Assembly (NCBI GenBank): GCA_017635395.1
Contig: JAGBLN010000017.1
Coordinates: 1 to 43,763, forward strand
Source of the DNA: Lachnospiraceae bacterium
GTDB taxonomy: Bacteria > Bacillota > Clostridia > Lachnospirales > Lachnospiraceae
Reading direction: 5' to 3'
Length of the DNA: 43,763 nucleotides
A model generated the notes under the pieces. It was not told the DNA's origin. It was given only the letters and a program-made list of their open reading frames with translations, and searched no databases. Shown here one piece after another: positions 28,768 to 32,014 of this stretch (its first letter is position 1; every line of letters starts with the position of its first letter). The position numbers and the translations under genes are program-made.

Positions 28768-29946
28768 CTAAGGAAGCAGCGACACCATCTTGGCAGGCTG
28801 CCTGTAGTACATGCTGGATATCTTTATTCCGGTCTTCGGACTTGAGGCATGCAGTACCTGTCCGTTTCCAATGTAAATGCCCACATGGTTTATACGGCCG
28901 CCTTTTGAATAAAAGATCAGATCTCCGGGACGTATGGTAGAATCATCCACCTTGGTTCCGTAATTTGCCTGAGTTGCAGCATGATGTGGAAGCGTCACCC
29001 CGTATTTCTTATATATACTGAGGACAAACCCCGAACAGTCACACCCCTTTGTAAGAGATGTACCGCCCCATACATAGGGGTTACCCACAAACTGCTTTGC
29101 ATATTCTACCAGGCTTACTCTCGTATCGGATATACCGTTACCGTACAGAAGTTCCTTCATGGTAACTGCTGTCGCAAGTTTTTCTTCTATGCACACATAA
29201 TCAAGTGAAACATAGGCAGTCTCATCATCAAGCTCGAACTGCACCCAGCCATCCGCATATCCCGTCACCAGCATTTCCTCGCCCTCAGGGATAAGAGTAA
29301 TAACCGGAGCCTCGGTATTAGGCTCTTCCCTTACCCTCAGTGTAGTGGTATTTACTACCGCAACGGTATCTATAACCTCGCGTGCCTTTGCAAGAGCCGC
29401 CGTTCCCGTAAGCAGATAATCCGCACTGACATAGCCTTCTACAGAGCCAGACTTTATATGAGCCCATCCGTCATCAGTAACATCCAGGATCTCACATGCG
29501 GCACCGTTTGACATCTTACCAACCAAATCACCGTCAACCGGCGCCTTACGAACATTCAGGTGATTATCCACAACCGCTATACCGAGATTCTGGTATCCGT
29601 AAATGCTGATTTCCTCTTCTATGGCATTCTGTCTTGAGATAACAGCGTCAATATCGGCTTCTATTCCCGCCAGCGCACAGGGGTTGTCTGCGTCAACATA
29701 TCCTGTAACACCTACAGCCGCATTCCTGCTAAGGGCCTGCATTATAGGAAGGTCAACTACTTTCAGGGTTTCGTCTTCCGAAACGGATCCGTCAGAAATA
29801 TCAACAGCGGACAGACCGTCCTCTGATACAGCAGGAGCGCCGGCATCCTCTCCCAGCCATTCCTGTCCGAACATTAGAACCATTAACAAACATATAACCG
29901 CAATGGAACCAGCCACAGCGGTAATTTTAAGTCTCTTTCTATTCAT
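28768..29946 (-). CDS. SH3b-NlpC/P60 cell wall hydrolase
   Basis: 392 residues. An N-terminal membrane anchor or signal (ITAVAGSIAVICLLMVLMFG) is followed by two SH3b wall-binding domains (~115-180 with HLNVRKAPVDGDLVGKM, and ~195-255 with TTLRVREEPNTEAPVITLIP). A C-terminal NlpC/P60 domain has catalytic Cys in GCDCSGFVLSIYK, His in INHVGIYIGNG and a third polar residue in VLHASSP. It cleaves peptidoglycan stem peptides, probably D-Glu to the third residue. There is no ribosome site ahead of the ATG; a -10 box lies only 7 nt upstream (see promoter). Confidence 0.93.
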   Translation of the reverse strand: MNRKRLKITAVAGSIAVICLLMVLMFGQEWLGEDAGAPAVSEDGLSAVDISDGSVSEDETLKVVDLPIMQALSRNAAVGVTGYVDADNPCALAGIEADIDAVISRQNAIEEEISIYGYQNLGIAVVDNHLNVRKAPVDGDLVGKMSNGAACEILDVTDDGWAHIKSGSVEGYVSADYLLTGTAALAKAREVIDTVAVVNTTTLRVREEPNTEAPVITLIPEGEEMLVTGYADGWVQFELDDETAYVSLDYVCIEEKLATAVTMKELLYGNGISDTRVSLVEYAKQFVGNPYVWGGTSLTKGCDCSGFVLSIYKKYGVTLPHHAATQANYGTKVDDSTIRPGDLIFYSKGGRINHVGIYIGNGQVLHASSPKTGIKISSMYYRQPAKMVSLLP

Positions 29947-29953
29947 GATGTAT

Positions 29954-29982
29954 ATTATATACTAAAACTTCCCACTTGTTAT
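29954..29982 (-). promoter_or_regulatory. Promoter abutting the NlpC/P60 start codon
   Basis: Minus-strand ATAACA (29977-29982), 17 nt, TATAAT (29954-29959), then 7 nt to the ATG. Transcription would begin at or near the A of the start codon, giving a leaderless mRNA. Confidence 0.45.
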
Positions 29983-30000
29983 ATTCTGCTTACTTCCTCA

Positions 30001-30058
30001 CACCGGCAGTCTGCCAGACGGTGGTGCGTTTGCACTACTCACTTAAACACCGGCAGAC
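30001..30058. other. Small hairpins and a direct repeat beside the fold-back
   Basis: CACCGGCAG(T/A)C occurs at 30001 and again at 30048; GTGC-gttt-GCAC and GTCT/AGAC hairpins lie between. AAAACTTCCCACT is also repeated, at 29964-29976 and 30059-30071. These border the long fold-back at 30062-30318 and may belong to the same element. Confidence 0.5.
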
Positions 30059-30061
30059 AAA

Positions 30062-30318
30062 ACTTCCCACTAACTGAACTACTTAGAACGACACTCGCAA
30101 TTGCGCCGGAACAATCACGATGCGTTGTTAGCCGAGGGGAAATCCAGTGCTTACAGCCCGTTGTTATCCGGTGCAGGGCTGCGAGACGGTATGCCCCTAG
30201 CCGGCTCGCATGTAACGGATAACTACGGGCTGTTAGCAATTAGTTTCCCGAGGCGTTGCATCGGTTCCGGTGCATATGCGAGTCGTCGTTCTCTTTCCAC
30301 AAACTATATGCGGGAAGT
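30062..30318. ncRNA. Candidate structured RNA or palindromic element: 257-nt fold-back
   Basis: One continuous rod of nested stems: 30062-30068 with 30312-30318; 30085-30092 with 30285-30292; 30094-30099 with 30277-30282; 30102-30112 with 30264-30274 (one G-U); 30118-30123 with 30258-30263; 30137-30142 with 30244-30249; 30148-30151 with 30235-30238; 30153-30160 with 30226-30233; 30163-30170 with 30216-30223; 30180-30185 with 30205-30210. About 70 base pairs in total, interrupted by small asymmetric loops. It is markedly more GC-rich than nearby spacers and holds no credible reading frame. Strand is undecided because the symmetry folds either way. I recognise no known RNA class; RNase P, tmRNA and 6S signatures are absent. 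Confidence 0.6.
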
Positions 30319-30373
30319 CTTAGTTAGTTAGATACCGCTACAGGACTGTGTTTGATCAGGAATTGCGGCATCC

Positions 30374-32014
30374 TTATTCCGTATTATCTCTCTTTATGAT
30401 GTAAACCGCGATATTAAATGCATGGTCTCCCACCCTCTCAAGCGCGGTTGCAACATCCGAGAAGATCATTCCCGCTTCAGGTGAGCACTCCTGTCTTGTG
30501 AGCCTGTCCACATGATGCTGCTGAATTTCCTTTTCCTTGGCATCAATGGCATCTTCCATTGCAGACATACGCTCCATATCTTCCTCGCTGCCGGAACCCA
30601 CAATGACTTTTATGGCCTGTCCCATCAGGTCATTTACCAGGTTAAGCAGCTCTGTCATTTCCTTTATGGCATCATCACTGAATGTCGCCCCTATTTTCTT
30701 ACGGCGCTCCGCAAACTCAGCAATGTTTTCCGCATGGTCGCCGATACGCTCAATATCGTTTGCCACATGGAAAAGTGAGCCTAAACCCTGCAAGTCGTCT
30801 ATAGGAAGCGGCGACTGGTTTATCTTTATAAGATATCCTGTTATGGACTTATTCAGGAAGTTGATGTTTTCTTCCATGTCACGGACTTCCTGTATATCCT
30901 CCTCGTCCAAAGTAACGAGCGCGTTCATGGCGCGGTTTAAATTGTCGCTGGCAAGGGAAGCCATACGCTCCAGTTCCTTAAGACCATCCACAACAGCTGT
31001 CGAAGGATTAAAGATGACCTTGTTACCGATATACTTAAGCTGGAAGGTATCCCTGTAACCAACCTTCTCGTCTTTTCCGGGAATAACAAGATAAGTAAGC
31101 TTTACTATCCAATTTGAGAAAGGAAGAAGCATTATAACCTGTGAAACCTTTATGATAGTGTGCGCATTTGCCACAAACCTTCCCTCATCTGCTGAGAAAC
31201 TATGCAGCCACATCGAAATGGGATCAATGGCAATCTGAAAAATAATGAACATTATCACTGTACCGATCACATTGAACAGAAGGTGGATCATAGCCGCACG
31301 CTTTGCATCTGTCTTACCTGCAAGCGATGCCAAAAGTGCAGTGGTGCAGGCACCTATGTTACATCCAAGCACTATATACAGACAGATATTTACATCCCCG
31401 AATAATCCCTGCTGTGCCATAAGGAGTACCAGCGATACTGTAACAGAAGAGCTCTGTACAATAGCCGTTATCACCAGACCTGCTATCACAGCCAAGAACG
31501 GATTTTCAAGTCCTGAAAGAAGATTTATCACCTGTTCGGAATCCTTAAGAGCACTCATACCCGAAGACATGGTGGAAATACCTAGGAAAAGTACGCCGAA
31601 GCCGGCAACGATATCAGCGATTCTCTGTACAAACTGATTCTTTGCCACCATTGATACCACAACGCCTGTGATAAGTATGATAGGTGCATATGCTGAAAGA
31701 TTAAATGAAACAAGCTGTGAAGTAACGGTAGTACCGATATTGGCACCGAATATGACACCGGCTGCCTGAAACAGAGTCATAAGGCCTGAGTTAACGAAAC
31801 TCACGACTAAGGATGTACAGGCTGAGGATGACTGCATTATCGCAGTGAACACAAGACCAACTATCATTCCGGTCACCCTGTTCGTGGTAAACATCTCCAG
31901 TATGCCACGAAGCTTTGCGCCGGCTGCCTTTTCAATACCCTCACTCATCAGCGTCATGCCCATCAGGAACAGTCCCAGTCCTGCACATAACGACATTATC
32001 TCTGCGAATCCCAT
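30374..32014 (-). CDS. Na/Pi cotransporter family protein with PhoU-like tail
   Basis: 546 residues. Two inverted NPT repeats carry the signature QSSS motifs (FTAIMQSSSACTSLVV near residue 60, TAIVQSSSVTVSLV near 165), with GANIGTTVTSQ and GCNIGACTTALL. After ~8 TM helices to residue ~310, the C-terminal ~220 residues form a PhoU-like helical bundle (ERMASLASDNLNRAMNALV ... DIERIGDHAENIAEFAERR ... VGDHAFNIAVYI). It imports phosphate with sodium, or exports it; the PhoU-like tail is regulatory in the family. GAGG precedes the ATG. The region 32015-32176 upstream shows no clear promoter. Confidence 0.93.
   Translation of the reverse strand: MGFAEIMSLCAGLGLFLMGMTLMSEGIEKAAGAKLRGILEMFTTNRVTGMIVGLVFTAIMQSSSACTSLVVSFVNSGLMTLFQAAGVIFGANIGTTVTSQLVSFNLSAYAPIILITGVVVSMVAKNQFVQRIADIVAGFGVLFLGISTMSSGMSALKDSEQVINLLSGLENPFLAVIAGLVITAIVQSSSVTVSLVLLMAQQGLFGDVNICLYIVLGCNIGACTTALLASLAGKTDAKRAAMIHLLFNVIGTVIMFIIFQIAIDPISMWLHSFSADEGRFVANAHTIIKVSQVIMLLPFSNWIVKLTYLVIPGKDEKVGYRDTFQLKYIGNKVIFNPSTAVVDGLKELERMASLASDNLNRAMNALVTLDEEDIQEVRDMEENINFLNKSITGYLIKINQSPLPIDDLQGLGSLFHVANDIERIGDHAENIAEFAERRKKIGATFSDDAIKEMTELLNLVNDLMGQAIKVIVGSGSEEDMERMSAMEDAIDAKEKEIQQHHVDRLTRQECSPEAGMIFSDVATALERVGDHAFNIAVYIIKRDNTE

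Follow-up and report, generated by a model that had tools for sequence, protein, structure and literature searches.

The window locus

The window, a stretch of 43,763 nucleotides of Lachnospiraceae DNA, contains a fold-back at 30062-30318 that is flanked by two genes on the - strand, one for an NlpC/P60-SH3 protein (28768-29946) and the other for a Na/Pi-cotransporter with a PhoU domain (30374-32014). The + strand of the fold-back folded at -130.3 kcal/mol (z -10.3) and the - strand at -121.4 kcal/mol (z -10.4), and none of 200 shuffled sequences folded equally well in either case. With z-scores of about -10 on both strands, the fold-back described by the original prediction is real. It forms a single rod, as predicted, but the size given for it, about 70 bp, was too small; 87 pairs were counted, five of them G-U. 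The GC content (0.53) exceeded that of four other spacers (0.40-0.47) and of the window as a whole (0.457), and no ORF of at least 80 amino acids overlapped the fold-back, both in agreement with what had been claimed. The fold-back matched no Rfam family at the gathering score and contained neither a tRNA nor a terminator-like site; at E-values up to 5, the window element gave just weak and implausible Rfam matches.

Short direct repeats had been noted beside the fold-back, and both pairs were present. AAACTTCCCAC occurs at 29965 and again at 30060 because two adjacent elements with a common terminal repeat each start with it, and the copies of CACCGGCAG at 30001 and 30048 both lie inside the left element, B-mini. 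The right element, A, has a degenerate right terminal repeat, and no paired right end was found in the window within one mismatch. The features of the locus are as follows.

29962..30060, + strand: B-mini, a cargo-less copy of the second shell, with related full-length and mini copies in the genome and genus
29962-29975, + strand: left terminal repeat of B-mini, CTAAAACTTCCCAC, the same as that of element A
30060, + strand: start of element A, where the right end of B-mini is missing
30060..30322, + strand: element A, a MITE shell plus core, with dispersed copies in its own genome and paired-end copies in the genus
30060..30070, + strand: left terminal inverted repeat of element A, AAACTTCCCAC
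30105..30276, + strand: conserved structured core (rod), 170.3 bits with model R1, in which the window copy is included
30109-30266, + strand: core as matched by the independent model R2 (73.8 bits, E 2.9e-19)
30128..30132, + strand: conserved loop motif TTAGC, 5' side
30142..30145, + strand: ATCC, identical in 37 of 37 cores of alignment A3
30174..30187, + strand: CAGGGCTGCGAGAC, which with GGCTCGCATG made up the pattern for the genus-level search
30203..30212, + strand: GGCTCGCATG, partner of CAGGGCTGCGAGAC in that pattern
30232..30243, + strand: GTTAGC-aa-TTAG, 3' side, facing TTAC and ATCC
30253..30259, + strand: GCGTTGC, 3' side, facing the TTAGC bulge
30310..30322, + strand: right terminal inverted repeat of element A, GCGGGAAGTCTTA, degenerate relative to GTGGGAAGTTTTA of intact copies

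Copies, ends and transposase of the shell

A search of the 2.1-Mb genome with positions 29940-30360 gave 28 matches of two kinds. Copies of element A (30059-30318) outside the window were on the same strand and 71-98% identical, and element B corresponded to the stretch to the left of A (29951-30060); both elements start with AAACTTCCCAC. The ends of the shell copies have the form [C]TAAAACTTCCCAC...GTGGGAAGTTTTA[G]. In L114 (1-1586) the shell's ends are 1.58 kb apart, with a 471-amino-acid ORF that has DDE_5 and DDE_Tnp_1 domains; we take this insertion sequence to be of the IS4 type. The window's genome contains the transposase as two pieces, 100% identical and both at contig ends, and seven of the 35 genomes of the genus gave matches, most of them weak.

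Target duplications were sought in 33 complete paired-end copies from the window's genome and two related genomes (G000, G003, and G040). In fourteen of these copies, six or more of the 7 bases are duplicated in one fixed register, compared with a mean of 1.67 and a maximum of 6 in 2000 shuffles. The window copy lies outside this set because its right end is degenerate. Derivatives of element A were detected both in coreless form (105-152 bp) and in longer form with an extra hairpin inserted (345-362 bp). A third hairpin, C (about 95-115 bp), occupied three different places of A (L046, L092, and L116; L104; L047 and L048).

The assignment of the shell as a MITE of an IS4-type element is well supported. 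Its anatomy and duplications were observed directly, and they point to past transposition. Element A resembles IS4-type MITEs in that it is small and non-coding, occurs in many copies, has the terminal inverted repeats of a transposase element and is bounded by target duplications of fixed length. It differs from them in holding a separately conserved folded core, and its sister copies bear either the third hairpin or a TwoAYGGAY RNA (RF01731), which was detected in full-length B elements at 88.8-94.3 bits (L024, L025, L117, and L122). The MITE-like repeat that the original prediction offered as an alternative thus describes the shell, with its scattered copies, terminal inverted repeats, matching transposase and 7-bp target duplications, but not the core, which is a separately conserved module.

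The conserved core

A search of GTDB contigs with the core pattern hit 30 stretches in eight genomes, every one titled Lachnospiraceae. Model R1, built with some of the copies of the window's own genome, the window copy among them, gave 21 matches in that genome, 13 at distinct places on the folded strand and the remainder on the opposite strand at those same places. In the genus, 10 of 35 genomes were matched. In the family sample, where seven candidates per genome were scored, 24 of 397 genomes were matched, and this count includes false matches because two of the 19 family loci inspected by fold view (L174 and L178) were not rods, the other 17 being rods, and no rod motif was found in L179. 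Model R2 was built from other genera alone, without the window's genus. It matched eight of 392 genomes in the order sample, one of them outside the family, and three of 391 in the class sample, all within it; its matches in G352 lacked clear motifs. Rfam 15 has no family for the rod (the window and ten loci at the gathering score), in line with the earlier failure to place the fold-back in a known RNA class, and a literature search at the level of titles and abstract openings returned no earlier description of the element. Rfam scans of rod copies did not match RF01731, and by that model the core is not a TwoAYGGAY RNA. A phage origin was rejected, as the core pattern was unmatched in viral contigs and the window rod in phages; a plasmid origin was likewise rejected after one core from G107 found no match among plasmids. 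In G013 the inner core is present without the shell ends, and the same holds in other genera. The rod is a widespread folded repeat family, dispersed between genes in many Lachnospiraceae, and its core is a separate conserved folded module that is independent of the shell and probably older than it.

Covariation was counted in three alignments of related sequences, with structures that came from the sequences counted. RNAalifold placed 40 pairs in 24 cores (A1), 26 of them with double changes. Removal of L019, L096, and L105, the first and last of these for their alignment, left 21 cores (A2) in which 42 of 65 pairs had double changes and 88.3% of cells were paired, compared with 31-40% when the structure was slid. 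Across 37 cores (A3), drawn from the window's genus and from others, double changes occurred in 40 of 45 pairs, with 87.4% of cells paired vs. 32-46% when slid. The most constant positions of A3 were in or beside loops (TTAGC, ATCC in 37 of 37 cores, GTT...TAG, and GCGTTGC). Outer arms varied between copies within one genome while their complementarity was kept. The + strand was the more stable in 23 of 24 and 25 of 29 cores (48 of 53, the cores being related), and the excess of G-U over A-C was modest among these related sequences (34/26, 55/28, and 32/15). At two orthologous sites shared by G013 and UBA3643, one and no double changes were seen in situ, and the rate of evolution at both sites is about as low as in their flanks; a third site, at which a single flank aligns, was left out. 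The core has the covarying conserved fold by which a structured RNA is judged, and the existence of homologues with strong covariation supports a fold under selection. In this respect the candidate structured RNA of the original prediction was partly supported, with covariation and no Rfam family, but no promoter signal accompanied it. For 37 copies from other genera, the best promoter scores in the upstream sequence averaged 7.19, compared with 7.46 for shuffled sequence, and a promoter belonging to the rod was rejected. The two alternatives offered were each right in part.

The four gene arrangements around copies were found 23, 20, 17, and 14 times by a loose motif finder that includes false matches, with no bias in gene direction, and recurrence of a neighbor gene between genera was limited to weak or single pairs. 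All seven close pairs of rods that were observed face 5'-to-5'; five of these pairs, within 1.2 kb, came from the model match lists and the others, in L192 and L198, from the loose motif finder. Where G415 has 513 bp containing two rods, its congener G1125 has about 12 bp. At another G415 site, a remnant resembling a rod flank persists in the congener, so loss of the rods is as likely as their original absence. The outer inverted repeat that encloses the G701 copies (L213, L221, L227, and L231) is a different one, approximately AAATTGCGGTTTGTCGGGGAGTCTGTC. The helix edge CAG...CGTC was present in 26 of the 37 rods of other genera, the next word pair in eight; the leading edge among 18 copies of the window's genus was TAG...CGTT (13 of 18), not CAG...CGTC.

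Other repeats were observed near rods. Tandem units resembling ATGCATGGGG...GCCCTGAAAGGC...CCCCATGCAA lie beside rods in G348 (L202 and L205), and at one site shared by two species (L089 and L109) a strong inverted repeat, GGGATATAA.TAAGGGGACACA...TGTGTCCCCTT...TTATATCCC, lies 5' of the rod.

Interpretation of the core and its relation to TwoAYGGAY

The reading that we favor, and consider somewhat probable, is a two-layer mobile element, in which an IS4-type MITE shell carries an independent, giant, single-stranded hairpin of REP/REPIN-like character. The DDE transposase would recognize the inverted repeats [C]TAAAACTTCCCAC...GTGGGAAGTTTTA[G] and mobilize the unit, and transposition would leave a 7-bp, AT-rich duplication. 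The + strand of the core would form the rod, whose stems, as observed, change freely while pairing and whose spaced internal loops are fixed. A putative protein may read these loops on single-stranded DNA or, less likely, on a transcript; such reading could have enabled the module's dispersal to intergenic positions and its entry into other palindromes, the MITE among them. In the window, element A adjoins a cargo-less sister shell, and decay of its own right end has started.

The core may instead be a transcribed structured RNA, for example a multi-copy small RNA that sequesters a protein, as TwoAYGGAY has been proposed to do with CsrA, and travels as MITE cargo, an explanation we regard as possible but doubtful. 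Covariation with invariant loops and the greater stability of the + strand speak for such an RNA, as does the presence in the sister shell B of TwoAYGGAY, for which PMC4333381 proposes CsrA binding. Against it stand the lack of promoter enrichment, an orientation to genes that is unbiased, a window copy without a terminator-like site and outer arms that vary freely among copies. Dispersion, pairing, missing promoters and the absence of gene bias lead us to prefer the giant REP/REPIN-like element over a transcribed RNA. The high copy number in single genomes, the lack of a recurring neighbor, the two-rod segment of G415 that its congener lacks and the other outer repeat of G701 also speak for a hairpin element.

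Strong folding of both strands and dispersal of copies between genes would also suit a site in DNA, double-stranded or cruciform, that serves a chromosome-organizing protein, with the two strands equal, but the conserved loops are asymmetric and one strand folds better in 48 of 53 cores, and we judge this improbable. A MITE alone, in which arm-to-arm correction within a long palindrome produces the paired changes and whose fold is unselected, would explain why palindromic arms differ among copies and are still complementary, and why few compensated pairs arose in situ at the two orthologous sites. The asymmetric loops are nevertheless the most conserved parts across genera, and the core is found without the shell. 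Arm correction is disfavored because it should erase asymmetric loops, yet these are kept; it could be the source of part of the paired changes, and as a complete account it seems very improbable.

The likeness to REP and REPIN sequences (PMC3116915, PMC3733652) has limits. These sequences are extragenic palindromes that form inverted dimers, as the rods do, and the CGTC word of CGTC-tagged REPs (PMC3733652) recurs at the hairpin base of many rods; the CGTC type, too, has no known transposase. The rod is about ten times longer than a REP and has internal loops, and its tag, with CGTC 3' and CA 5' of the hairpin, reverses the CGTC...CCA order that the accessible part of PMC3733652 suggests; Firmicutes and Clostridia are not mentioned in that part. 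The Y1 transposase (RAYT, PF01797) was detected in eight of 20 core-positive and nine of 14 core-negative genomes. Membership of the core in the REP-RAYT system was rejected, because Y1 is missing from 12 of the 20 core-positive genomes and the rod departs from CGTC-tagged REPs in its size, its loops and the order of its tag.

Several observations weigh against the two-layer element. The handling enzyme was not found, the RAYT being absent from those 12 genomes; the rods missing from the G415 congener may be losses rather than empty sites; double changes in situ are few, the G-U excess is modest, and CAG...CGTC does not lead in the window's genus.

TwoAYGGAY is tabled as a probable RNA that is not cis-regulatory in the part of PMC2864571 available. 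It was matched in 35 of 69 genomes searched, with up to 33 matches in one, and is multi-copy in Lachnospiraceae. It resembles the rod in its long, rod-like, multi-copy form, its 5'-to-5' pairs and its occurrence in the same shell family, and differs in consisting of two hairpins tipped by AYGGAY loops. All six TwoAYGGAY pairs within 400 bp among those listed face 5'-to-5', and four of 10 copies scored by script had the CAG...CGTC edge. In L087 (1615-2412, Tb.RUG.225) two TwoAYGGAY RNAs and one rod are adjacent. An association of rod and RNA by genome was rejected, both in the genus (RNA in eight of 10 core-positive vs. 18 of 25 other genomes) and outside it (five of 17 core-positive vs. four of 17 others). 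Tentatively, the rod and TwoAYGGAY might belong, as two variants, to a single superfamily of giant single-strand hairpins in Lachnospiraceae and near kin, propagated by a putative loop-reading enzyme; a CAG...CGTC base, 5'-to-5' pairing and a position inside other palindromes would be common to both. If so, TwoAYGGAY would be a mobile hairpin and not a regulatory RNA.

These results add to Lachnospiraceae genomes a widespread folded repeat family that is absent from Rfam 15, and they reveal one MITE family that bears two different conserved structured modules. For 'orphan' structured RNAs such as TwoAYGGAY, the choice between regulator and mobile hairpin is now directly testable.
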